From: an uncultured Gallionellaceae bacterium
GTDB lineage: Bacteria; Pseudomonadota; Gammaproteobacteria; Burkholderiales; Gallionellaceae
Direction: 5' to 3'
Assembly: GCA_903847155.1 (NCBI GenBank)
Contig: CAINCU010000021.1
Location: 1 to 57,545, forward strand
Length of the DNA stretch: 57,545 bases
Position 1 is the first letter of the stretch. Each line of letters starts with the position of its first letter. Below the pieces are notes generated by a model. That model did not search any database and was not told the DNA's origin. It saw only the letters and a program-made list of their open reading frames with translations. Shown piece after piece: positions 15,445-41,547 of this stretch. The position numbers and the translations under genes are program-made.

Positions 15445-16458
15445 TTAAATTCCGCCGAGACGTTTGGCAAACGAGAAAGCATAAGCCGGGGAACGGAACA
15501 GCAGGATCGGATCATTTGTGGGCGCTATTCCGTCACTCATTACCAATGGATCAAAGTTGATCGGCTCGCACACGGCACCTTTCTGTGGCATTGCCGAGGA
15601 GATGGTTAGGGTTCCCGCTTTGAACTCCTTCCTATTCGTGGGCCACATAATTGTTGGATTGTTCTCGGTATCACCCGGCTCTCCAATCGAGACTATCATG
15701 TCCCAGCGTACCGGCCCTTTCCGGGTTCGTTCGATTAATGTCTGTTCAAGAAAATTCGCAGGGAAAGACTTCAACTCGTCATCTGTGAGACGCTTCTCTC
15801 CATCCTGAGGAACAAAGCGCCAGCGCACGAAAGTGACTTTGTTCTTATGATTGATAAATTTGAAGGTGTGTATGCCGAAGTAGGAACTGGTTGCGTAACT
15901 TCTTGGAGGGTTGTTCTTATCCAGAAACCCGGCTTGCGCAAGGTTGTCGGGGTGAGTAGCCTTGAAAGCTCTGATCTTTTCTGGATCTGGTTTGCCAGTC
16001 GTAGGGTCTGGCTTGGTCGCAATCAACATATCCAAGAATGTTCGAGGCTGTATGGCTCCGAAAACCGGTGTGTTCAGCATCGTTATGTGCTGCAAGTTTC
16101 CGCCGGGTAGCGCGAATTCGAGAGCCATCCCACGTGCATTTTTTGTAGTATCTGGTACCTTGGGATTTCCACCGGCGAGAGAGAAGCGTGCTATGACCGA
16201 AACAGGTTTTCCAGAAAACAGGGCTGAACGTGAATAAACCGCTGCCTTTGATGTACCTGTGAATTCACCTTTTGCACATGTGCCCTTGGTGTGATTCCGA
16301 CGTTCACCTGGGTTAATACCGAATGTCCCCTCCAGAGCTGTAACCACCTGATCAGCGGTTACTTCTTCTTCCGCCGCCCCGGCCAACTGAGACTCAAAAG
16401 TTAGAGTCCAAGCAAGTATAAACAGGCCTACTTTGAATGCGTTGTTGATGACAACCAT
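15445..16458 (-). CDS. periplasmic catalase-family peroxidase (SrpA-like)
   Basis: The 337-aa product has a signal peptide (hydrophobic residues about 9-20, likely cleaved after QLAGA near residue 28) and the minimal heme catalase fold of SrpA-type proteins. The distal His is in RRNHTKGTCAKG (His 56), followed by ARFSLAGGNPKVPDT, NARGMALEF and LLFRSPAYAFSFAKR near the end. These are shorter than true catalases and lack their C-terminal domains. They remove peroxide, often in the periplasm, and some use organic hydroperoxides. A ribosome site CAGGAGG lies before ATG 16458, and a TTGACA-17-GATGAT promoter lies at 16510-16538. It is the first gene of the leftward stress set. Confidence 0.88.
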   Translation of the reverse strand: MVVINNAFKVGLFILAWTLTFESQLAGAAEEEVTADQVVTALEGTFGINPGERRNHTKGTCAKGEFTGTSKAAVYSRSALFSGKPVSVIARFSLAGGNPKVPDTTKNARGMALEFALPGGNLQHITMLNTPVFGAIQPRTFLDMLIATKPDPTTGKPDPEKIRAFKATHPDNLAQAGFLDKNNPPRSYATSSYFGIHTFKFINHKNKVTFVRWRFVPQDGEKRLTDDELKSFPANFLEQTLIERTRKGPVRWDMIVSIGEPGDTENNPTIMWPTNRKEFKAGTLTISSAMPQKGAVCEPINFDPLVMSDGIAPTNDPILLFRSPAYAFSFAKRLGGI

Positions 16459-16509
16459 GATGAACCTCCTGCTGACGTTAACTTGAGGCTGATTTCACAG
16501 AATTAATGA

Positions 16510-16538
16510 ATCATCTGACTGCTGACTAATTTTGTCAA
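16510..16538 (-). promoter_or_regulatory. predicted sigma-70 promoter of the catalase gene
   Basis: On the minus strand a perfect TTGACA (16533-16538) is followed after 17 bp by GATGAT (16510-16515, four of six consensus bases). The spacer and -10 edge contain a direct repeat, AGTCAGC AGTCAGA, which could be a regulator site. The ATG is about 52 bp downstream. This is pattern-based only. Confidence 0.45.
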
Positions 16539-16549
16539 GTATAAGTGTT

Positions 16550-16952
16550 TGCTTGAAACTGAGTGGGTCGAAAATCATGGGAAGAATTGGAGGGCATCTG
16601 CGAGTGTCACTCTTTGGCACGTTACAAAAGAAAATGAGTGGCGGCTTTATGGCGGCGAATTCTCGATCTCGACTGACTCAAAGTGGCCGGATTTTGTCTG
16701 TTTAGAACCGCAAATAAGAATGACTGCTGTTCTCCCGTTGAAAGACGTTCGGCGGTCTGCGATAGCCCCCCGTTCAAGTAACACGCGGGACTCTAAATAC
16801 ATCAACCCGAAATCTATCAGCTAAATCCCCCAACAGCCAGCAGGAAAAATATATAGACATCATGTATTGACCTACCGCACCTCAAACGACGCGGATTAAG
16901 TTTGAGGTTCTGTAAAACCAAAGGCGCAGAGCCGAAATTGAGGGGATAGGTC
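16550..16952. other. intergenic stretch with no firm gene
   Basis: A rightward frame from TTG 16549 to 16824 is open for 91 codons but has no ribosome site and ends in low-quality sequence, so I do not call it. From about 16831 on, TTGAGGTTCTGTAAAACC and AAATTGAGGGGATAGGTC resemble the leader that precedes IS110-type transposase genes. Confidence 0.4.
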
Positions 16953-17132
16953 ATGAACGAGTTTGGCAAATACGTTGGACTGGATGTCCGCAAAGAAACG
17001 ATAGCGGTATCGACGGGCATCTTCACGCAGTTGGCTTATTTTGTGCTGCTTGGGGTTGGTCATCTGAACAAGGTGGGTAGGCTTACAAGTATTTTTTCCA
17101 AGTGGAGTATCGGGACAGATTTGGCACATTGA
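16953..17132 (+). pseudogene. truncated IS110-family transposase N-terminus
   Basis: ATG 16953 opens with NEFGKYVGLDVRKETIAVST, the standard first strand and catalytic Asp region (GLDVxKE) of IS110/IS1111 DEDD transposases. After about 20 codons homology ends, and the frame runs through unrelated sequence to TGA 17132 (59 codons in total, against 340-400 for a working enzyme). At the break the sequence TCGACGGGCATCTTCA resembles the R1 arm TTGACGGGCATCTCCA. It is therefore a dead fragment marking an old insertion and deletion at the right border of the stress-gene block, just before flhB. Confidence 0.75.
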
Positions 17133-17211
17133 TAAGCCCTATTTCTCCCGCTGTTCGGCGGATTGAATTTTTAGACAGTATTGATAATAGCCATGTGTAA
17201 AGGACTCCGCC

Positions 17212-18366
17212 ATGGCCGAACAAGACAGTGATCTAGAAAAAACAGAATCGCCCTCGCAACGACGTTTGGATAAAGCGCGCGAAGATGGTCAAGTCGCGCG
17301 CTCGCGTGAGTTGTCCACCTTTGCTGTGATGATGGCGGGCGGAGCCGGGTTGTGGGTGATGGGTGCCGGATTTGTGCAGCAACTGATCCTTGTGCTGCGC
17401 CAGGGTTTGACGCTGGATACCGGCTTGGCTTTTCATGCCGAGCAACTGTTGCCGCATTTGAGAGATTTGAGCGTGGCTACGCTGATGGTCTTTCTTCCCT
17501 TTCTGGTGTTACTGCTGGCGGTGGCGATGTTTTCGCCGTTGCTGATGAATGGCTGGTTGTTTTCCATGAAACCGCTGCAACCTGATTTTTCCAAACTCGA
17601 TCCAATCGCCGGTTTTGTCCGCATGTTTTCCAGTCACGGCTTAATGGAACTGGCAAAAGCCATCGGCAAATCTATTATTGTCGGTGGCATCGGTTCATGG
17701 GTGGTGTGGCACAACAGGGCAGACGTGCTGCTACTGGTGGGCGAACCATTGGCGCGCGCCATACCGCATTTGGGTAGCCTGCTGTGGGGGAGTTTTACTG
17801 CCATCATGATGGGTATGCTGTTGATCGTCGCCATCGATGTGCCATTCCAATTGTGGGAACACAACAAGAAACTGAAGATGACCAAGCAGGAAGTGCGTCA
17901 GGAATCGAAAGAGACCGAGGGCGATCCGCAAGTCAAGAGCCGTATCCGCGCCATGCAGCGCGAGATCGCCCGCCGTCGCATGATGTCCGAAATTCCAAGC
18001 GCCGACGTGGTGGTGACCAACCCGACGCATTTCTCGGTCGCGCTGAAATACAGCGAGAACAAAATGGGTGCGCCGGTCGTGGTAGCCAAAGGCTCACATT
18101 TATTGGCAGCACGCATCAAAGAGATCGCCAAAGAGAACAATGTGCCGATCCTGGAGGCACCGCCGTTGGCGCGTGCGTTGCATAAACACTGCGATCTCGG
18201 CCAGGCCATCCCGGAAGCGCTCTACACCGCCGTCGCCGAAGTGCTGGCGTACGTCTATCAACTGCGCCGTTATGAAACACAGGGTGGTGCGATGCCTAAT
18301 TTACCGGGTGAATTACCGGTGCCGAAAGAACTTGATCCGGCAACGCAAAGCGAGATACGGCATTAG
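17212..18366 (+). CDS. flhB: flagellar type III export switch protein FlhB
   Basis: The 384-aa product has the FlhB layout: a basic N-terminus (EKTESPSQRRLDKAREDGQV), four membrane helices (about residues 30-210) and a cytoplasmic tail with the self-cleaving motif NPTH at residues 270-273. Cleavage there switches export from rod/hook to filament substrates. The start ATG 17212 has AAGGACTCC before it. The remainder of the export gate (flhA) lies 7.5 kb further on, separated by two unknown genes and a signalling cassette; in most relatives flhB and flhA adjoin. About 265 bp of non-coding sequence follows. Confidence 0.97.
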   Translation: MAEQDSDLEKTESPSQRRLDKAREDGQVARSRELSTFAVMMAGGAGLWVMGAGFVQQLILVLRQGLTLDTGLAFHAEQLLPHLRDLSVATLMVFLPFLVLLLAVAMFSPLLMNGWLFSMKPLQPDFSKLDPIAGFVRMFSSHGLMELAKAIGKSIIVGGIGSWVVWHNRADVLLLVGEPLARAIPHLGSLLWGSFTAIMMGMLLIVAIDVPFQLWEHNKKLKMTKQEVRQESKETEGDPQVKSRIRAMQREIARRRMMSEIPSADVVVTNPTHFSVALKYSENKMGAPVVVAKGSHLLAARIKEIAKENNVPILEAPPLARALHKHCDLGQAIPEALYTAVAEVLAYVYQLRRYETQGGAMPNLPGELPVPKELDPATQSEIRH

Positions 18367-18631
18367 TCGATAGGAAACTAAGACGTTTGGCTATGTGAAT
18401 TCGTTAGTACATAGGCCAGAATAAACAGTACCATAGAAAACCATGATGGCCGTATGATGGGAAATTACGGGTTGGCGAATTAAGACTTTGGCCCATTAAT
18501 TGTTCTATAAGTAGCATATGTGATAACTTACACTTTGGTATCAAGCGTTGTTGGTAATAATTTGTCAAGAATTTGGATGCAGGTAATTTCGCTCACACGC
18601 AAGTTTTTTAAAATCTCAGAGAGGAAAAAAC

Positions 18632-18931
18632 ATGAATTTTAATATTGTCATTTTTTTAAATATTGCCGCGATTCTTATCATGTTTTATTGCTTATTTTTG
18701 GTGCTGTCGCTTAAAACCAGCATTCCGGGTGGGATGGTGGGCAAGCATTGGAATTTCCTGACAGCGTTGGTGGCGTTATTCAGTATCGGTTATCTGACTA
18801 CGCCATTCTTTGACCAGTTGTCGTATGAGGTGCTGCGTTTAGTGGTTGCGTGCATCTTCGTGTTTGGTGCGATTTATGTAGTCGTTACAGTGCGACTTAT
18901 TTACAATATTATCAAGGAATTATCCGAATAG
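18632..18931 (+). CDS. small membrane protein of unknown function (99 aa)
   Basis: ATG 18632 follows a clear GAGAGGAAAAAAC ribosome site. The protein has three probable membrane helices: IVIFLNIAAILIMFYCLFLVL (two parts), FLTALVALFSIGYLTTPFF, and LVVACIFVFGAIYVVVTVRLIY, with a short charged tail NIIKELSE. No family is recognised. It is followed after 12 bp by a soluble unknown protein, suggesting a two-gene unit between flhB and the HD-GYP/FIST/kinase cassette. A supporting role in membrane sensing is possible but not shown. Confidence 0.75.
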   Translation: MNFNIVIFLNIAAILIMFYCLFLVLSLKTSIPGGMVGKHWNFLTALVALFSIGYLTTPFFDQLSYEVLRLVVACIFVFGAIYVVVTVRLIYNIIKELSE

Positions 18932-18943
18932 GGCGAGGCAATC

Positions 18944-19408
18944 ATGCATCCAGATCTGGTCTTGTTTCGTACCCCGAAGGGTGAGGAAATTATCCATGGC
19001 ACCGGGCATGAAATATCCACCGTTCAACGCCGTGCCTTGCTGGTTGTTGACGGCAAGACATCAGTTGCCAAGTTGGTGGAAAAGGCCATCTGGGTAACTG
19101 ATTTGGCAACTGTGCTGCAAGAGTTAAATGCGCTGGGTCTTGTACATGATGCGGTATCGACCGGTCATGGAGAGGGAGGTCAATCCCGCGATGTGGTGCA
19201 GTTGTTAAAAATTCAGCTCGTGGCCACAGCCAGGGACTTGTTAGGCAAAAACGCCGAGCGCACAGTTAAAAAAATTGAAGATGCCGATAACACACCTGAG
19301 GCTTTGCAAGAGGCGTTGCTGGCCTGCAAAAAAATTATCAAATTAACGATCAATGAAGAACTTGCAGATACTTTTCTGCGGCGCGGACTCGAAGTAATCG
19401 GCAAATAG
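18944..19408 (+). CDS. unknown soluble protein with winged-helix-like N-terminal segment (154 aa)
   Basis: The N-terminal half contains VQRRALLVVDGKTSVAKLVE...LATVLQELNALGLVHD. This is the VDG-T-V-L ... L-ALGLV pattern of a small winged-helix-like module often found unannotated in betaproteobacterial regulators. The second half is helical and charged (RDLLGKNAERTVKKIEDADN, TPEALQEALLACKKIIKLTI). There is no signal peptide or membrane segment. It is probably co-transcribed with the 99-aa membrane protein, and its stop is followed at once by two hairpins (19413-19463). I do not assign a function. Confidence 0.75.
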   Translation: MHPDLVLFRTPKGEEIIHGTGHEISTVQRRALLVVDGKTSVAKLVEKAIWVTDLATVLQELNALGLVHDAVSTGHGEGGQSRDVVQLLKIQLVATARDLLGKNAERTVKKIEDADNTPEALQEALLACKKIIKLTINEELADTFLRRGLEVIGK

Positions 19409-19412
19409 AGTG

Positions 19413-19463
19413 CGCGCGGACATTCTTGTTCGCGCGAATTCGATCTTGCGCGGAGAGCGCAAG
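19413..19463 (+). terminator. two tandem hairpins after the 154-aa gene
   Basis: Hairpin 1 (19413-19436): ten pairs around the loop TTCT, including one G-T pair. Hairpin 2 (19445-19463): CTTGCGC / GCGCAAG with loop GGAGA. No T-tract follows, so this may be a Rho-type or attenuating structure or an mRNA-end stabiliser rather than an intrinsic terminator. The rest of the gap up to 19655 shows nothing else certain. Confidence 0.4.
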
Positions 19464-19655
19464 GTCAAAGGTTTCAGCCCATGGTTCTCAGCTAGAGCAA
19501 ACTTTCTATTGCTGTGACTCGCATCTGGCTTGCTGCGTTTCTTTTGCAAATTCATTGCATATCTACAGCAACAAGCCGCTTTGTAATATATGCAGCGATT
19601 CGGATAATATCCATAAAATGGTGGGAGTCCGGTTAGAGCGGGCAATGGAGGATTG

Positions 19656-20714
19656 ATGAAAGTCGTGATAATCGACGATGCGCAGATCAATGTGACGTTA
19701 TTGCAGCATCTGGTCCGTAAGTTGCCTGATTGCGAGTCAGTTTGTTTTACCGATCCGGTCGTGGCGTTGGCTTGGTGTTCGCTCAACGAGCCTGATCTGG
19801 TGGTGGTGGATTACATGATGCCGCAATTGAGCGGCACGGAATTGACGGAAAAATTCCGTGCGCGTTATCCGGATATTCCGGTGCTGATGGTCACAGCCAA
19901 CCATGAAATCGAATTGCGCCATCAAGCATTGCAGCTCGGTGTGACCGACTTTCTGAATAAACCTCTGGACACCACTGAATTTCTCGCACGTTCCAAAAAC
20001 ATGCTGGCTTTGCGCCAGAGCCACAAAAATCTTGCCGATCATGCCGCTTTGCTGGCGGGAGAGGTGCGCAAGGCGACTCAACAAATCGTGGCGCAAGAAC
20101 GCGAAACCATATTCTGTCTGGCCAAGGCGGCGGAATATCGCGATCCCGAGACCGGCTTGCATATTGTGCGCATGGCGCATTACTCAAGACATATCGCCCG
20201 TGTGCTGGGCTTGCCGGCGGAGCAGCAAGACTTGTTGCTGGAAGCCGCACCCATGCACGATATCGGCAAGGTCGGCACTCCCGATATGATTCTGCTCAAA
20301 CCAGGCAAACTGACGGATGCGGAGTTTTCTATCATGAAGCAGCACGCGGTGATCGGGTTTGAAGTGCTGAACGCCAGTAGCTCGCCACTGCTCAAAGTGG
20401 CGGCGGAGATTGCTTTTACACATCACGAGAAATTCGATGGCAGCGGCTATCCGAGCGGATTGAAGGGTAATGATATTCCATTGTTCGGGCGCATTGTGGC
20501 AGTGGCCGATGTGTTCGATGCCTTGACCTCGGAGCGTCCGTACAAAAAAGCGTGGAGCATCGAACAGGCAACACAGATGATTCGTGATGCATCGGGCACA
20601 CACTTCGACCCGGCGTGTGTTAATGCGTTTTTCAAGGAATTTACTGAAGTGCTGGCGATCAGAAATAAATTTGTGGACGAAGCAATCGAGCTGAGAGACC
20701 GTGCGTTGGATTGA
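19656..20714 (+). CDS. response regulator with HD-GYP c-di-GMP phosphodiesterase output
   Basis: This 352-aa RpfG-type protein has an N-terminal receiver domain (residues 1-120: acidic IDDAQ, phosphorylation site VVVDYMMP with Asp 52, conserved T in MVTAN and K in LNKPLD). It is joined by a coiled linker to an HD-GYP domain with MHDIGKVGTPD (His 201, Asp 202), HHEKFDGSGYP and VADVFDALTSERPYKK. The metal and GYP residues look intact, so it should hydrolyse c-di-GMP, a change that generally favours motility. ATG 19656 has GGAGG before it. The FIST and hybrid-kinase genes follow in the same direction with gaps of 46 and 9 bp, suggesting one operon in which the kinase or its Hpt domain phosphorylates this regulator. 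Confidence 0.93.
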   Translation: MKVVIIDDAQINVTLLQHLVRKLPDCESVCFTDPVVALAWCSLNEPDLVVVDYMMPQLSGTELTEKFRARYPDIPVLMVTANHEIELRHQALQLGVTDFLNKPLDTTEFLARSKNMLALRQSHKNLADHAALLAGEVRKATQQIVAQERETIFCLAKAAEYRDPETGLHIVRMAHYSRHIARVLGLPAEQQDLLLEAAPMHDIGKVGTPDMILLKPGKLTDAEFSIMKQHAVIGFEVLNASSSPLLKVAAEIAFTHHEKFDGSGYPSGLKGNDIPLFGRIVAVADVFDALTSERPYKKAWSIEQATQMIRDASGTHFDPACVNAFFKEFTEVLAIRNKFVDEAIELRDRALD

Positions 20715-20760
20715 GCGCAAGCGGTTGCGGTGACGGTCAATTAACAAAGGGAGATGCATC

Positions 20761-21876
20761 ATGCAAATCAGTCAAATACGTTGGACAGTCAAATCGGGGT
20801 GGCAATCGCCGCCTGAATTTTCCGCACAGGCCGATCTGGTGCTGGTGTTCGCGGAAGATAATTTCTTTCAGACGGAAAATTGTTACGCACAGTTGCGCGC
20901 TGTTTTCCCACTGGCGCATATTGTCGGCTGTTCTTCCTCCGGTAGCGTACTCGGTGTGGAGATCAGCGATGGTGATGTGGTGGCGACGGCAGTCAAGCTG
21001 GCGCATTCCCGCATTCGCCTTGCCTCGGTTGATGTGCAAGCCGGCATGAGTGCGCGTGATGCCGGAATGCGTTTGATGCAGGAGCTGGCTGGCGCTGACT
21101 TGCGCCATGTATTTGTGCTATCCGACGGGTTACTGGTGAACGGCAGTGATCTGGCGCAAGGGCTGAATCAGGCGGGTGTTGCGGTGACCGGTGGATTAGC
21201 GGGCGACGGTACGCGCTTTGGTAAAACATGGGTGATGGCGGATGCTCCCTCCAAAGACGGACGCATCGCTGCTTTGGGATTTTACGGTGAGGTTACAGTC
21301 AAAAGCGGTTGCTTCGCCGGATGGGAAGAATTCGGCGCCGAGCGTCTTGTCACCAAGTCGGTGGGCAATGTGGTATATGAAATTGATAACGAGCCGGCGC
21401 TGGAGCTGTATAAAAAATATCTGGGAGATCGTGCGGCAGAGTTGCCGGCTAGCGGACTGCGTTTCCCCTTGAGCATTCAGGCGACCAAATCGGACAAGCC
21501 GCTGATACGCACTCTGTTGGCAGTGGACGAGGCGGCGCACAGTTTGACTTTCGCGGGTGATGTGCCGCAGGGTTACATCTGCAAGTTAATGCGAACCAAT
21601 CTGGATAACTTGATCGACAGCGCAGGCCTGGCGGCGGAATCGGCGAAACCGGCCAAGCAGGGCGTGGTCGGTTTGTGTCTGGTGGTGAGTTGTGTTGGCA
21701 GACGCCTGGTGATGGGACAGTTGACGGAAGAAGAACTGGATATCGTGAAAGAAAAATTGGGCGACAGCACGTCCATCACCGGGTTTTATTCATACGGGGA
21801 ACTGGCGCCGTTCAGCGATGTGATGCTATGCCAGTTGCACAATCAAACCATGACGCTGACTACCATTTACGAATAG
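20761..21876 (+). CDS. FIST-domain sensory protein
   Basis: The 371-aa product is a full FIST protein. The N-terminal domain (about residues 25-215) contains AHIVGCSSSGSVLGVEISDG and VAVTGGLAGDGTRF, the usual glycine-rich signatures. The FIST_C domain (about 220-350) contains EPALELYKKYLG and ends with GFYSYGELAPF, the typical closing motif. FIST proteins are thought to bind small ligands such as amino acids and pass the signal to kinases or cyclases. A ribosome site AAAGGGAGATG precedes ATG 20761. The gene lies between the HD-GYP regulator and the hybrid kinase (9 bp upstream of the latter), so it is most simply the ligand-binding accessory of that kinase. Confidence 0.93.
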   Translation: MQISQIRWTVKSGWQSPPEFSAQADLVLVFAEDNFFQTENCYAQLRAVFPLAHIVGCSSSGSVLGVEISDGDVVATAVKLAHSRIRLASVDVQAGMSARDAGMRLMQELAGADLRHVFVLSDGLLVNGSDLAQGLNQAGVAVTGGLAGDGTRFGKTWVMADAPSKDGRIAALGFYGEVTVKSGCFAGWEEFGAERLVTKSVGNVVYEIDNEPALELYKKYLGDRAAELPASGLRFPLSIQATKSDKPLIRTLLAVDEAAHSLTFAGDVPQGYICKLMRTNLDNLIDSAGLAAESAKPAKQGVVGLCLVVSCVGRRLVMGQLTEEELDIVKEKLGDSTSITGFYSYGELAPFSDVMLCQLHNQTMTLTTIYE

Positions 21877-21885
21877 GCAACACTC

Positions 21886-24800
21886 ATGCATCGTTTGCTC
21901 GAACGCCAACTGCGACGCCATCTTGGCAAGGATTTTCAGCCTGATGCGGCATTGCAGTCGTTCCTCGACATCGTCGATAGTTACTATCACGAGGTAGATA
22001 AAGAGCAGAGTCTGCTACAGAACGTACTGCAGTTGAGTGCCGCAGAACTGAATGCGGTGAATGAGCGGATGCGCGTGCAGAACGCCGAGATGACGCGCAC
22101 GCTGCTCAATACACTGAGCGACGGTGTGTACGCCACCGACCTGCAGGGCAATCTGACCTTCATGAACGTGGCAGCCGAGAAGATACTGGGCTGGCAGGAG
22201 CACGAGATGATCGGGCGTTCGGTGCAGGAGACGGTGCAACACCATCTCCCCGACGGCTCTGCGAATGTCGCAGACAATGCGCCGCAACTGCGGGTGATAC
22301 GCAGCGGCGAAGCATTTGAGTGCTTTTGCCACTATATTGCCAAAGACGGTCGCTTCATTCCGGTCGAATGCCGCTCGCGTCCTATCCTGCTGGAGGGCAA
22401 AATTTCCGGTGCGCTCGTTTCGTTTCAGGACATCAGCTTGCGTCAGGAAACGGAAAATAACTTACGCATCGCCTATGATCGCTTGAAAGAAACCCTGAGC
22501 GAATTGGAGTTTCAAAAGTTCGCGCTGGATCAGCATTCGATTATCAGCATCTCCGACCGCAGCGGCAAGATCATTTATGCCAACAGCAAATTCAGCGAGA
22601 TCAGTCAGTACCGCAACGATGAACTAATCGGACAGGATCATCGGTTACTCAACTCGGGATTTCACTCGCGCGAGTATTTCAAAGAGATGTGGCAGACCAT
22701 AGCGCGCGGCGAGGTATGGCACGGCGAAGTGAAAAATCGGCGCAAGGACGGCACGTATTATTGGGTGGAATCTACCATCGTGCCGTTCATGGACGAACAC
22801 GGCAAACCGTTGCGCTACGTTTCCATCCGCACCGACATCACCGCGCGCAAAGCCATGGACGAACAGATGTTTCAGCAGCGCGCATTTTACGAGCGCATCA
22901 GCGAAACACTGGGTGAAGGTTTGTATGTGCAGGACGCGCGAGGACGCTGCATCTACATGAATTCGGAAGCGGAAAAACTGTTGGGGTTGAAACGCGAAGA
23001 ATTCATCGGCATGACGGTGCATGACACCATCCATAAACAAACCGCAACTGGCGTGCCTTTGCCTGCGCGCGATTGCCCGATCTATAACTTGGTACATGAG
23101 CATGGCGAAGCGCGCATGGACGACCAGGTGTTCACCCGCAAGGATGGCTCGGTATTCCCCGTTGCGATTTCGTCCAAAGCTGCGTATGCAGCGAACGGCG
23201 AACTGGAAACGGTTGTGGTCGCTTTTCAGGATATTTCAGATCGCAAGCAGAACGAACAGAACATGCGTCACACTAAAGAGCGGCTCAACCTGGCTTTGGA
23301 TGGTTCCAATCTTGCGCTGTGGGATTGGGACATCGCTAGTAGCCGTATTTATCTAAGCAGCAAGTGGTCGGAGATCATGGGTGGAGCGCCGCAAGAGACG
23401 CAGACAACGGTAGAGCTGTTGTTTAAAAGTATCCATCCCGATGATTCCATTTTGATGCAAAGCCGTTTGGCGACGGTGTTGAAAGGGCAGGCGGATTTCT
23501 TCTCGGCGGAATATCGGGTCAAGCGTAACGATGGTCAATGGATTTGGATACACACCCACGGCAAAGTGGTCGAGCGCGATGCCAGCGGGCGCGCACTGCG
23601 CATGGCCGGAACCAACGCCGATGTCTCCGTGCGCAAAGATGCTGAAAACGCCATCCTGAAAGCCAAGGAAGCAGCGGAGCAGGCGAACAAAGTGAAAGGC
23701 GATTTTCTCGCCAACATGAGCCACGAAATTCGCACGCCGATGAACGGCATCATCGGCATGACCGAGCTGGCACTGGATACCGAGTTGACGCACGAGCAGC
23801 GCGAATATCTGGAACTGGTCAAGTCGTCAGCCAATTCGTTGTTGCACATCGTCAATGACATCCTCGATTTCTCCAAGATGGAATCGGGCAAGATGGATAT
23901 CGAGAACATCGAATTCTCGCTGGAACAAATGTTGCGTGTCACCATGAAGACGCTGGCCGTGCGCGCGCACCAAAAAAATCTGGAACTGTTGCTGCATGTT
24001 GCATCTGATGTGCCGGACCATTTGCTGGGCGACCCCGGACGCCTGCGTCAGGTCATAGTTAATCTGGTGGGCAACGCGATCAAATTCACCGAGCGCGGCG
24101 AGATCGAAGTGGCGGTAATGTGTGAAGCCAACTCGCGCGAAGGACAAGCCAGATTGCGCTTCAGCGTGCGCGACACCGGCATCGGCATACCGCGCGAAAA
24201 ATTCCAGACCATTTTCGAATCATTCTCGCAAGCCGACACCTCGACCACGCGCAACTATGGCGGTACAGGTCTAGGGCTGACCATCTCGGCGCAACTGATC
24301 GAACTCATGGGCGGCAAGATTGGTCTGGACAGCGAGGTGGGCAAAGGCACCACGTTTTATTTTGCGCTCGACATGCACATTCTTTCCGGCAACCCGCTGG
24401 CGGATTACCAGCACACCGGACGCATCAGCGGTATGCCGGTGCTGCTGGTCGATGACAACGCCACCAACCGCAAGCTGCTGCACGAAATGCTGCGCAACTG
24501 GAAGATGTTGCCCACCTCGGTGTCCAGCGGGCCGGAGGCATTGGCCGAACTGGAACGGGCAGCGGCAGAGGGACATCCGTTTGTCCTGGCGATACTGGAT
24601 GTGCAGATGCCGGGCATGGATGGTTTTGAAGTGGCCGAGCGCATCCGCCAGCACCCGGAGCATGTGGGCGCAACGGTGATGATGCTGACCTCGGAGGGAC
24701 AGCGCGGCCACGCCGCGCGCTGTCGCGATCTGGGTGTGTCCGGCTATCTGATGAAGCCGGTTTCGCAATCCGAATTGCTGGATACCATCATGACCGTGCT

Positions 24801-25602
24801 GGGCGAACCGCAGCAACAGAATGCCCCGCTCATCACGCGACATTCGCTGCGCGAGATGCGGCAAAAACTCAAGCTGCTACTGGCCGAAGACAATGCGGTG
24901 AATCAGACGCTGGCCGTACGTCTGCTGGAAAAAATGGGGCACAGCGTGACCGTGGCCAATAACGGTGCCGAAGCGGTGCAGTACTGGCAGAACAGTCAGT
25001 TCGACGCGATCCTGATGGATGTGGATATGCCGGTGATGAACGGTTATGAGGCGACGGAGCGCATCCGCATCGAAGAATTGTCGCGTGGCACCCACATCCC
25101 TATCGTGGCGATGACCGCGCATGCCATGCAGGGTGCGCGCGAGGAATGTCTGCGTCACGGCATGGACGGCTACCTGACCAAGCCCATAGATACCGAAGCG
25201 CTGTGGAACGAACTGGAAAGCTTGGGGAATGGCCTGCACGCTGCAGTGAAAACAGGCGCGGCGCAACTGGCCAAGCTGGCTGTCGTTGATTTTGGCAAGG
25301 CACGGCAGACCATGGACGACAACCGCGAACTGTTCGACGAGATCGTGCGCCTGTTCTTTGAAAGCGTGCCGCCGCAGATGCAGCGCATCAAGGATGGACT
25401 GGCACAGAGCGACGCGGAAATGGTGCGCCACGCGGCGCACACGCTGAAAGGCGTGGTCAGCATCTTCGCCGCCGAGCGCGCCATGCAGGCCGCTGTCAAC
25501 GTCGAACAAAAATCCGATCAGCCGGGGCTGGATATGGCGGTGGATGAACTGGACGAAGCGCTGGCGGAACTGCAGGAAGCCATTCGCGCCTATCAGTGGT
25601 GA
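21886..25602 (+). CDS. multi-PAS hybrid sensor histidine kinase with two receivers and Hpt
   Basis: At 1238 aa this soluble-looking kinase has no obvious membrane segment. Its order is: N-terminal helical region (1-65), PAS 1 (about 70-185), PAS 2 (205-325), PAS 3 (335-455), PAS 4 (465-590, with IHPDD), HisKA with [11 protein letters not shown] (His 613), HATPase (GTGLGLTIS), receiver 1 (ILDVQMPG, Asp 905), receiver 2 (LMDVDMPVM, Asp 1045) and a C-terminal Hpt (AAHTLKG, His 1185). PAS-PAC joins read FQDIS or RTDIT. This supports a four-step phosphorelay, with the adjacent HD-GYP receiver (Asp 52) as a likely last acceptor. PAS ligands are not evident from sequence. It is the last gene of the cassette; an R1 repeat and flhA follow. 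Confidence 0.95.
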
Positions 25603-25644
25603 TGCTCTGCAATTAACTGGTTTCGGATTTAGCAATCACACTTG

Positions 25645-25721
25645 GCCGCAAGCCGCGTCAATAGGTGATCTGCGCTATGCAGTGCGTGGAGATCGCCGTG
25701 TTTGCTGGCTTGGCATAAAGG
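25645..25721 (+). repeat. R1 dispersed repeat, copy d
   Basis: GCCGCAAGCC-GCGTCAATAGGTGATCTG forms the left half, and GTGCGTGGAGATCGCCGTG with TTGCTGGCTTGGC the right half. It lies 43 bp after the kinase stop. The rest of the gap to flhA (25722-25896) holds no other feature I can support. Confidence 0.75.
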
Positions 25722-25896
25722 CATCCCGCCAAAATTGGTTTTGCGCGTAAGTAGAATCTTCGTATGCGTTTCGCTAATAGCCGCGCAATTCCCCCTCTTA
25801 TTCCCTCTTTGGATTTAACCCCCGTTCCTGATAATACGCATGAGCCAGAGTGCCTATATATGGCGTTCAGTAACAAGCGGATTGTCGAGGAATGAA

Positions 25897-27984
25897 ATGA
25901 ATGCAGTATTCAAAACCCTGAAGGAAGTGCTGATGCGCGGCGGCGTGCGCGGTTTGGCAGGCCCGATCTTGATCGTGATGATCTTGTCGATGATGGTGCT
26001 GCCGCTGCCGCCGTTCCTGCTCGATATTCTGTTCACGTTCAATATCGCGCTGGCGATCATGGTGTTGATGGTGGCGATGAATACCACCAGGCCGCTGGAT
26101 TTTGCGGTGTTCCCTTCGGTGCTGCTGATCTCGACCTTGTTGCGCTTGTCGCTTAACGTCGCTTCCACGCGCGTGGTGCTGCTGCAAGGCCACACCGGGC
26201 CGGGCGCGGCGGGCAAAGTGATTGAGTCGTTCGGTCAATTTCTGGTGGGTGGCAATTACGCGGTGGGTATCGTGGTGTTCGTCATTCTAGTGGTCATCAA
26301 TTTTGTGGTGATCACCAAAGGCGCGGGGCGTATCGCGGAAGTGGGCGCGCGCTTCACCTTGGACGCGATGCCGGGCAAGCAGATGGCGATCGATGCCGAT
26401 CTGAATGCGGGGCTGATCGGTGAAGATGTGGCGCGCAAACGCCGCGCCGAGGTGTCGCAGGAGGCGGACTTCTACGGCGCGATGGACGGTGCTTCCAAGT
26501 TCGTGCGCGGCGATGCCGTGGCCGGCATCATCATCATGCTCATCAACGTGGTGGGTGGTCTGGTGGTCGGCGTGTTGCAACATAATCTCGATCTGGCCAC
26601 TGCCGCCAGAAACTACACTTTGCTGACTGTTGGCGACGGGCTGGTGGCGCAGATTCCCGCGCTGGTGATTTCCACGGCAGCCGGCATGGTGGTCAGTCGC
26701 GTGTCCAGCGAAGATAACATCGGCCAGCAGTTGGTCAAGCAGTTGATCAACAGCCCGCAGGTGATTCTGATGACGGCGGTCATCATCGGCATGCTCGGCG
26801 TCATCCCCGGCATGCCGCATTTTGTGTTCCTGCTACTGGCGGGCGCGCTGGGCTGGTTTGCCTTCGTCTTGTTGCAGGTAGCCAAGAAGGAAGAAGAGGC
26901 AAAGAACAAGCCTGCCGCAACCACGGTTGCCCCGATTCAGGAAGCGGCGGAAGCCAGTTGGGAAGACGTGGCACAAGTGGACGTACTGGGTCTGGAGGTC
27001 GGCTATCGTTTGATCGCCTTGGTGGACAAGGCACAAGACGGCGATCTGTTGCGCCGCATCAAAGGCATCCGCAAAAAATTCACGCAGGACATGGGTTTCC
27101 TGCCGCCCGCCGTGCATATTCGCGACAATCTCGATTTGCATCCGACTGCATACCGCATCACGCTCAAGGGTGCGGAGATCGGCAGCGGTGAAGCTTTCGC
27201 GCACATGTTCCTGGCGATCAATCCCGGCAGCGTGAGCGGAACCTTGCCCGGTACGCCGACCAAAGACCCCGCGTTCGGTCTGCCCGCCGTGTGGGTGGAC
27301 GCGAATATGCGCGATCAGGCGCAGGCCATGGGCTACACCGTGGTGGATGCGGGCACCGTGGTGGCCACGCATATCAGCCATCTGATTCATCTGCATGCGG
27401 CGGAGTTGCTGGGGCGGCAGGAGCTGCAACAGTTGCTCGATCATCTGGCCAAGATCGCCCCGAAACTTGCCGACGATTTAATTCCAAAATTGTTGCCGCT
27501 GGCGACCGTGCAGAAGGTGCTGCAAAACCTGCTGGACGAAGGGATGCACATCCGCGACATGCGTACGATTCTGGAAACACTGGTCGAACATGCGCCGCAA
27601 GTACAAGATGCCAACGTGCTCACCGCGATTGTGCGCGTGGCGCTGGGTCCGGCCATCGTGCAGCAGTTCTATCCGTCGGCGCAGGAGTTGCAAGTCATCG
27701 GCATGGACAAGGAGCTGGAATATGTTCTGGGGCAGGCGTTGCAGGCAGGCGGCTCGGCCATCGAGCCGGGCTTGGCCAACACGCTGTTGCGCGAAGCACG
27801 CGCCGCCGCCGAGGCGCAGGAGAAATTAGGTCTGCCCACCGTGTTATTAGTGCCAGGCGGCATCCGCGATTTATTGGCACGTTTCCTCAAGCGCGCATTG
27901 CCGCAACTCAAAGTGATTTCACATGAAGAAGTGCCCGGCTTCAAGACCATCCGGGTGACATCAATGGTGGGAGGTAGAGCATGA
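25897..27984 (+). CDS. flhA: flagellar export gate protein FlhA
   Basis: The 695-aa product has the size and pattern of FlhA: eight membrane helices in the first 340 residues and a large cytoplasmic domain that docks export chaperone-substrate complexes. The FHIPEP-family signature RIAEVGARFTLDAMPGKQMA is at about residues 146-165, followed by DADLNAGLIGEDVARKRR. ATG 25897 is preceded by GTCGAGG; a longer frame from 25840 would add 19 aa but lacks family support. FlhA uses proton-motive force with FliHIJ to drive export. It overlaps flhF by four bases (ATGA), opening a tightly packed flhA-flhF-flhG-fliA-motC-motD unit. Confidence 0.97.
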   Translation: MNAVFKTLKEVLMRGGVRGLAGPILIVMILSMMVLPLPPFLLDILFTFNIALAIMVLMVAMNTTRPLDFAVFPSVLLISTLLRLSLNVASTRVVLLQGHTGPGAAGKVIESFGQFLVGGNYAVGIVVFVILVVINFVVITKGAGRIAEVGARFTLDAMPGKQMAIDADLNAGLIGEDVARKRRAEVSQEADFYGAMDGASKFVRGDAVAGIIIMLINVVGGLVVGVLQHNLDLATAARNYTLLTVGDGLVAQIPALVISTAAGMVVSRVSSEDNIGQQLVKQLINSPQVILMTAVIIGMLGVIPGMPHFVFLLLAGALGWFAFVLLQVAKKEEEAKNKPAATTVAPIQEAAEASWEDVAQVDVLGLEVGYRLIALVDKAQDGDLLRRIKGIRKKFTQDMGFLPPAVHIRDNLDLHPTAYRITLKGAEIGSGEAFAHMFLAINPGSVSGTLPGTPTKDPAFGLPAVWVDANMRDQAQAMGYTVVDAGTVVATHISHLIHLHAAELLGRQELQQLLDHLAKIAPKLADDLIPKLLPLATVQKVLQNLLDEGMHIRDMRTILETLVEHAPQVQDANVLTAIVRVALGPAIVQQFYPSAQELQVIGMDKELEYVLGQALQAGGSAIEPGLANTLLREARAAAEAQEKLGLPTVLLVPGGIRDLLARFLKRALPQLKVISHEEVPGFKTIRVTSMVGGRA

Positions 27985-40719: not shown

Positions 40720-41547
40720 ATGGCGCTCAACCAAATTGATGTCGGTAGTCTCGCAGTTGATGCGCAGAGTCTCGACAAACTGCGCAATCAAGCCAAACAG
40801 TCGCCGCAGGATGCGCTGAAAGCGGCGGCGCAGCAGTTCGAAACGGTGTTTATCAACATGATGATGAAGAGCATGCGCGATGCGACACCGCAGGATGGCA
40901 TGTTCGATAATGAGCAAACCAAGATGTTCACCGGCATGCTCGATCAGCAGTTGGCACAGGATATGTCCAAGCGCGGCATGGGTTTGGCAGACATTATGGT
41001 GCGTCAACTCAGCCGTTCGCTTCCCGTGGCAACAACATCGCCAACGATAACGTCAAATTCTAATGCTATTCCTTCTGCGTACAAGGTAGATATGCAACAA
41101 ACCTTTGTGGATAAATTGAAAGCGCCTGCCGAGCAGGCCAGTCGCAACACCGGCATTCCGGCGCATCTGATTCTCGGACAAGCGGCTTTGGAAAGCGGTT
41201 GGGGCAAACGCGAAATCAAGATGGCGGACGGCAGTACCAGCTATAACCTGTTCGGCATCAAGGCGGGCAAAGACTGGAACGGTAAAGTGGCGGAAGTGGC
41301 CACCACCGAATACCAGAATGGCGTGGCAAGCAAGCAAGTGGCGCGCTTTCGCGCTTACGATAACTACAATCAGGCATTTCAGGATTACGCCAAATTATTG
41401 AGCGATAACCCGCGTTATGCCAATACCCTCGGACAGGGTGATGGTAAAGCGTTTGCACAGGCTTTGCAGCAATCCGGGTATGCCACAGACCCGCATTATG
41501 CGGACAAACTGGTGAATGTGATTGGCAGCATCAGCGCGCGAGCCTAA
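40720..41547 (+). CDS. flgJ: flagellar rod-capping protein/muramidase FlgJ
   Basis: The 275-aa protein is a two-domain FlgJ. The N-terminal rod-binding part contains AAQQFETVFINMMMKSMRDA and LDQQLAQDMSKRGMGLADIM. The C-terminal glucosaminidase part contains IPAHLILGQAALESGWGKRE (catalytic Glu in ALESGWG), NLFGIKAGKDWNGKV and FRAYDNYNQAFQDYAKLL. It caps the growing rod and opens the peptidoglycan for it. It starts 9 bp after flgI and ends just before the FliA promoter of flgK. Confidence 0.96.
   Translation: MALNQIDVGSLAVDAQSLDKLRNQAKQSPQDALKAAAQQFETVFINMMMKSMRDATPQDGMFDNEQTKMFTGMLDQQLAQDMSKRGMGLADIMVRQLSRSLPVATTSPTITSNSNAIPSAYKVDMQQTFVDKLKAPAEQASRNTGIPAHLILGQAALESGWGKREIKMADGSTSYNLFGIKAGKDWNGKVAEVATTEYQNGVASKQVARFRAYDNYNQAFQDYAKLLSDNPRYANTLGQGDGKAFAQALQQSGYATDPHYADKLVNVIGSISARA

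Follow-up and report, generated by a model that had tools for sequence, protein, structure and literature searches.

In Pseudomonas, Legionella, Shewanella and Vibrio, the FIST protein NosP and an adjacent kinase, NahK, feed a cyclic di-GMP (c-di-GMP) or quorum-sensing output (PMC8846402, PMC8738867). In the nosRPK operon of Burkholderia pseudomallei a REC-HD-GYP protein (NosR), a FIST protein (NosP) and a kinase (NosK) are encoded in that order (PMC12570481). According to that report, NosP binds NosK, hemin-bound NosP inhibits NosK, more so with a nitric oxide (NO) donor, and NosR is phosphorylated by NosK; nosP and nosK deletion mutants are altered in swimming and biofilm formation, and in B. 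thailandensis the effect of NO is opposite. NosK is presented there as a 44 kDa protein with a HEINN motif, in which no sensory domain is recognised within the N-terminal ~130 residues (PMC12570481). In this work we analyzed three adjacent genes of the same kinds (below, the trio) located between the flagellar export gate genes flhB and flhA of an uncultured Gallionellaceae bacterium. They lie in contig CAINCU010000021.1 of assembly GCA_903847155.1, whose whole analyzed stretch of 57,545 nucleotides (nt) is referred to as the window.

The trio comprises a REC-HD-GYP response regulator of the RpfG/NosR-like type (19656..20714; Pfam Response_reg and HD_5), a FIST protein (20761..21876; Pfam FIST N and FIST_C) and a hybrid histidine kinase of 1238 amino acids (21886..25602). 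The three genes share one strand (+) and stand in the order R-P-K, both as in nosRPK, with flhB upstream (17212..18366, +; Pfam Bac_export_2, E 1.3e-131) and flhA downstream (25840..27984, +). The coordinates and the Pfam matches thus agree with a sequence-only reading of this DNA, which had noticed that HD-GYP, FIST and kinase genes split flhB and flhA on one strand. The gaps within the trio are 46 and 9 nt, compared with 247 nt on its 5' side and 237 nt on its 3' side, so the three genes are likely transcribed together; since the identical order was found again in relatives, the arrangement is not due to chance. The same reading took the combination of these three genes in a single operon to be new; however, nosRPK (PMC12570481) and an Azospirillum oryzae plasmid already have it. 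What stands of its proposal is that FIST is linked to a phosphorelay whose HD-GYP output is intact, and that several related species keep this system next to flagellar genes.

The reading that we prefer, with slightly more confidence than doubt, is that the trio is a nosRPK-like operon set in the flagellar export cluster, in which FIST docks on an N-terminal module of the kinase and, by way of a phosphorelay, controls a c-di-GMP phosphodiesterase encoded next to the flagellar genes. The trio differs from nosRPK in its location between flhB and flhA, in its kinase, which has four PAS domains, two receivers and Hpt where NosK is a 44 kDa protein, and in its regulator, in which HD-GYP is intact while NosR has HG-GTP. 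In the regulator D52 is present and HDIGK (from residue 201), HHE and GYP (at 264) are kept, residues that, judged from sequence, are those expected of an active phosphodiesterase. Because the regulator reached 160.9 bits with the NCBIfam NosR model (NF053512, cut-off 400), the FIST protein 66.4 bits with NosP (NF041558, cut-off 450) and the kinase 182.1 bits with the C-terminal model of NahK/ErcS (NF041832, cut-off 400), the trio is a nosRPK-like variant and not a member of the NosR, NosP or NahK families.

Among 150 genomes sampled from the order, 29 have a NosR gene above the cut-off. FIST adjoined NosR in only two (L218 and L231) of the 17 above-cut-off loci that were fetched, and two further fetched loci under the cut-off have no FIST. 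The other 15 above-cut-off loci (L219-L230, L232-L234) are without FIST, and several of them adjoin other kinases. One more locus, L237, had been chosen because of its FIST, and the HD-GYP protein encoded there proved to be NosR (578.9 bits). L218 (1314-4340) and L237 (3058-6612) are NosR-FIST-NosK-like operons with the kinase module from other genomes of the window's genus, where they are a second system in addition to the flagellar one; L231 is a NosR-FIST-module kinase operon from another family of the order. The FIST proteins of L218, L231 and L237 belong to the same FIST class as that of the window and score similarly low with the NosP model (66.2, 51.3 and 57.1 bits), while their kinase frames of 359-366 codons, about the size of NosK, consist of the module and a kinase core, with HEINN in L218, as reported for NosK. 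In these three loci, then, the FIST partner of NosR is of the window's class.

The one NosP/NahK pair confirmed in this analysis looks different. In L195, from a genome of the window's taxonomic class, NosP scored 589.2 bits (cut-off 450) and NahK 1678.1 bits (cut-off 1500), with 561.2 bits for NF041832; its FIST is distant from that of the window, and its kinase begins with another segment in place of the module. The putative pairs in L196, L197 and L206 look similar to that of L195. The window shares with NosP/NahK a FIST gene adjoining a kinase that is predicted to feed a c-di-GMP-type output; it differs in having the module and in the low NF041832 score of its kinase. The Azospirillum oryzae plasmid (NZ_CP054620.1, L238) has in one run a FIST, a PAS-HisKA-HATPase-REC-REC-Hpt kinase that by eye begins with the module, and a REC-HD-GYP protein; there, however, the order is P-K-R, the annotated neighbours are non-flagellar and the module contains an insertion. 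The regulator of the window also has the domain order and HD-GYP residues of RpfG-type proteins. RpfG-type phosphodiesterases pair with RpfC, whereas the partner here is a FIST-kinase pair.

Both domains of the FIST protein scored above the Pfam gathering threshold (PF08495, 153.9 bits; PF10442, 117.1 bits), and it is the one FIST match in the genome. By analogy with NosP it would be the input of the system, with heme as the most likely ligand and NO as the regulating gas. The sequence-only reading had called the ligand unknown; that is too strong for this type of operon, as hemin-bound NosP answers to NO in the experiments of PMC12570481. It is possible, though not what we expect, that the wiring is the same and the ligand is some other small molecule, held in a pocket like those of Toblerone-type folds. 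The FIST sequence had no match among solved structures (best E 0.31). Its AlphaFold model (ma1ef8976b1d5; 41 sequences; predicted local distance difference test score, pLDDT, 90.8) was matched best by Foldseek to the FIST part of human FBXO22 (E 3.6e-11), followed by chorismatases (best E 3.9e-6) and a cyclic amide hydrolase (4.0e-4), all of the latter being Toblerone folds. The residues C311, R314, C357 and H360, invariant among the 41 aligned members, could suit other ligands, the score with the NosP model is far from that of the true NosP in L195, and a c-di-GMP review words the binding of NO and/or heme by FIST as a suggestion whose mechanism is little known (PMC8846402). On the other side, FIST proteins of this class sit in NosR operons, the arrangement in which hemin-bound NosP answers to NO (PMC12570481), where the step from these operons to the published protein is one that we infer; and the genome carries a cytochrome cd1 gene, for a nitrite reductase or a relative, which is a possible NO source. 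The published genomes of Sideroxydans ES-1 and Gallionella ES-2 carry NO reductases (PMC3770913).

The N-terminal kinase module and its FIST partner

Residues 1-66 of the kinase (21886..22083, +) form an unannotated helical module coupled to FIST, with the consensus MHRLLxRQLxR...Y...E..LL.N.L...ELN..N. In the alignment of 51 modules Q8 is invariant, and L4, L5, R7, Y34 and E54 are conserved in at least 90% of the rows. Scans of the 51 members gave no convincing family for it: from Pfam, none matched more than five of them (DivIVA, with a best E of 0.0029), and from NCBIfam none matched more than two; no solved structure was matched by sequence (best 0.068), and no description of the module was found in the open-access literature searched.

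The connection with FIST was studied in named loci and in sampled genomes. In 80 named loci gathered on FIST similarity alone, the protein directly 3' of FIST starts with the module in 78 cases according to the profile and in 72 by a count of the motif. As 50 of these loci served to build the profile, it should be mentioned that the module was also found behind FIST in 28 of the 30 others. By their record titles the named loci come from Pseudomonadota, Campylobacterota, Bacteroidota, Planctomycetes and others, although single phylum labels may be wrong because several of the loci are metagenome bins. Separately, 200 genomes of the phylum were searched for the module and with a profile of the window's FIST class. 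Here 47 of 52 modules lie directly 3' of a class FIST, and 46 of the 48 class FISTs (at least 200 bits) are followed by the module, the remaining two being incomplete matches (G226:C104 at a contig edge; G185:C31, covering profile positions 3-301 of 377). A further 13 FIST matches were weaker (110-198 bits). Two of them are fragments of a single broken gene in G246 that is followed by the module; the remaining 11 lack it. When the whole FIST family of Pfam was searched, at least 45 of the 52 modules were behind FIST among the matches listed, and the module followed 45 of the 150 FIST places listed; most FIST genes therefore belong to other classes, in which the N-terminus of the partner differs from the module. 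In 30 further genomes, chosen so that 30 modules behind a class FIST were expected, 33 of 34 modules had this position.

Thus, as far as sequence comparison goes, the module-FIST partnership is specific, and the new point of this locus is the first ~66 residues of its kinase. What follows the module varies: it may be a PAS hybrid or a bare kinase core, and in L079 the next part begins in a way that, by eye, is GGDEF-like. The AlphaFold model of kinase residues 1-190 (34 sequences; pLDDT 87.4; predicted template modelling score 0.65) has a helix at 3-13 followed by a single helix at 21-75; since the latter runs on into the first PAS domain, the model suggests the top of the kinase signalling helix as the place where FIST may act.

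That the module is no more than a signalling coiled coil of the usual kinase type, whose link to FIST reflects operon inheritance without any contact, appears improbable. The modelled region is indeed mostly one long helix, and five of the 52 modules stand without a neighbouring FIST (L200, L202, L203, L204 and L205). However, the conserved positions go beyond those of heptads, the module persists while what follows it changes, and other FIST classes pair with a different N-terminus. The FIST-less module kinase of L205 is the weakest of its group and may be a chance match.

For the transfer of a signal from FIST/NosP to the kinase, the module offers a concrete candidate docking site for mutation as well as a sequence mark by which FIST partners can be found. 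In L193 (1727-4372, -) a single natural protein of 882 amino acids has the architecture FIST-PAS-PAS-HD-GYP, a fusion that supports the link from FIST to HD-GYP.

Placement beside flhB in Gallionellaceae

The positions of FIST, flhA, flhB and HD-GYP genes were joined in 150 Gallionellaceae genomes. Matches to flhB were found in 109 genomes, to flhA in 109 and to both in 107; in 90 genomes the two share a contig and a strand, and in 81 of these the gap is at most 400 nt (two overlapping). Gaps above 6 kb occur in five genomes (G091, G109, G084, G000 and G028), and all five contain the trio. Of 31 FIST-bearing genomes (identity at least 64%), 10 have the FIST gene on the strand of flhB and no more than 6.3 kb behind it. 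For HD-GYP (identity at least 59%) 31 genomes were entered, of which 11 have the gene no more than 1.3 kb behind flhB, at 69-228 nt in 10 of the 11. These counts omit weaker matches, second FIST copies in G047 and G008, extra flhB/flhA pieces in G124 and G084, and G002, in which the HD-GYP match (81%) is cut at a contig edge and flhB is on another contig. In G109, G091 and G084 the order is flhB-HD-GYP-FIST-kinase-flhA without the two small genes found in the window, and flhB of G091 reads as two pieces. The neighbourhood search proposed in the sequence-only reading thus bears out the trio inside flhB-flhA as a real, inherited lineage trait, present in a minority of the family sampled. Those Nitrotoga-type (g8) genomes in which the trio is intact, including three named Candidatus Nitrotoga, have it elsewhere, and their flhB and flhA are adjacent.

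Several loci have partial or altered arrangements. A lone FIST without HD-GYP or kinase lies between flhB and flhA in G095 (L125:3809-4921), and in G051 a broken FIST (L248:1438-1721) lies between HD-GYP and the kinase. The flhB-flhA gap of G045 (L119:3457-4355, -) holds two opposite-strand genes that by eye resemble a PIN toxin and an antitoxin.

Comparison of the HD-GYP and FIST trees revealed different histories. All 12 flagellar HD-GYPs fall within one clade of 15 (support 100/99, midpoint root), and three location changes explain the HD-GYP tree, a number not reached in any of 500 label shuffles. The FIST tree needs eight changes (shuffled mean 9.8; 45 of 500 shuffles as low), at least five of which are forced by the starred branches. 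FISTs on a contig other than that of flhB were labelled 'other', even where a contig break conceals the place (e.g., G081, in which HD-GYP follows flhB), so eight may be too many. An origin in which the whole trio entered the flagellar cluster at once is unsupported for the FIST part, in view of the eight changes. Given three changes for HD-GYP against eight for FIST, we read HD-GYP, from these trees, as the settled flagellar member and the FIST-kinase pair as an exchanged input.

Other genes were also found behind the flagellar HD-GYP. A di-haem cytochrome c peroxidase-like gene lies 3' of HD-GYP in G081, a kinase with a DAHL domain lies between HD-GYP and FIST in G115, and G042 and G028 have a gene pair of similar size at that place. 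Among the extra pairs, the first gene of L117:6227-8049 is di-haem CCP_MauG-like and the second gene of L123:5927-10962 encodes a DAHL-PAS hybrid kinase with Hpt; the remaining members of these pairs and of those in L121:4651-8960 and L124:2049-6283 (both in reverse-complement coordinates) were matched on size and kinase domains only. Outside the family, Mariprofundus erugo has a FIST-kinase pair (L055:8476-13316) with 70% FIST identity. Its FIST is sister to that of G069, of the Sideroxydans type (support 100/99), and the pair has possibly been exchanged between these iron oxidisers.

It is doubtful that the trio is a mobile regulatory unit merely located in the flagellar cluster with no action on motility: related HD-GYP-FIST-kinase units away from flhB-flhA in trio-bearing g8 genomes and others, the eight changes of FIST location and the Mariprofundus branch favour it, but the closeness of HD-GYP to flhB in 11 of the 31 genomes, its single clade and the shuffling result speak against it.

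A broader proposal, which we hold with as much doubt as confidence, covers both the module and the placement. One FIST class would signal through a dedicated module of ~66 residues, an adaptor that in several phyla couples one gas/heme sensor to kinases without further domains, to PAS hybrids and probably to cyclases. The HD-GYP next to flhB would, in Gallionellaceae, be a fixed hub at which heme-type inputs are swapped, namely the FIST-kinase pair and the di-haem peroxidase-like protein with the DAHL kinase.

Proposed signalling route and other features of the window

Behind the module, the kinase has four PAS domains at residues 69-183 (22090..22434), 220-320 (22543..22845), 331-459 (22876..23262; the best stretch of TIGR00229) and 488-577 (23347..23616), the first, second and fourth of them from Pfam. 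They are followed by HisKA (604-668; 23695..23889) with H613 in HEIRT, HATPase (715-830; 24028..24375; Pfam HATPase_c), a first receiver with D905 (about 850-970; 24433..24795; approximate borders, set by eye), a second receiver with D1045 (998-1109; 24877..25212) and Hpt with H1185 (1152-1231; 25339..25578), all on the + strand. The five phosphorelay residues named in the sequence-only reading, H613, D905, D1045 and H1185 of the kinase and D52 of the regulator, were all verified, and the kinase is intact as a hybrid phosphorelay in its His, receiver Asp and Hpt His residues. It shares the HisKA-HATPase-REC-Hpt logic of kinases of the BarA/TorS type and differs from them in the four PAS domains, the two receivers and the FIST-partner module; with the BarA model it scored 515.6 bits (cut-off 890).

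In the preferred reading, FIST would dock on kinase residues 1 to about 75, a short N-terminal helix and a long coiled coil that are continuous with the PAS chain, and docking would set the balance of kinase and phosphatase activities at H613. Phosphate would then pass from H613 to D905/D1045, to H1185 and to D52 of the regulator, whose predicted phosphodiesterase would lower c-di-GMP and so favour swimming. The flagellar setting points to a possible link from NO/heme or redox state to swimming in iron oxidisers, bacteria whose habitat has gradients of oxygen and of iron running in opposite directions.

Several findings weigh against the nosRPK-like reading. All three proteins are far under the NosP, NosR and NahK cut-offs, and, in contrast to NosK, the kinase carries its own set of four PAS domains. 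FIST is a rare neighbour of NosR among the fetched loci, its fold is also like chorismatase-type folds, and a few modules lack it. In relatives the FIST-kinase part is often sited elsewhere, with a FIST tree little better than shuffled labels. That the published Burkholderia NosP and NosK share the FIST class and the module is, moreover, drawn from L218, L231 and L237 and not from the published sequences. Finally, with patterns built on consensus sequences, a flagellar sigma promoter was not found upstream of the trio: the sigma-28 pattern had a single match in the window, at 41545, far from the trio, and the sigma-54 pattern had 54 matches compared with a chance mean of 49.06. Within 16400-26100, 10 sigma-70-like sites (8.0 by chance) and 14 terminator-like sites (11.0 by chance) were counted. 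A promoter is therefore not claimed for the trio.

The flhB-flhA interval contains five + strand genes, and the sequence-only description of a cassette splitting flhB and flhA, correct for the trio, left two small ones unmentioned. The first (18632..18931, +) encodes a protein of 99 amino acids, predicted by eye to be a membrane protein, and the second (18944..19408, +) a protein of 154 amino acids. Neither has a Pfam family above cut-off, and no counterpart of either was detected in 109 other loci compared, many of them too short to reach there, or in a set of 16 loci of relatives. On the 5' side of flhB a short frame (16954-17200) resembles, by eye, the N-terminus of a transposase, and on the other border flhA is followed by flhF, flhG, fliA, motA and motB.

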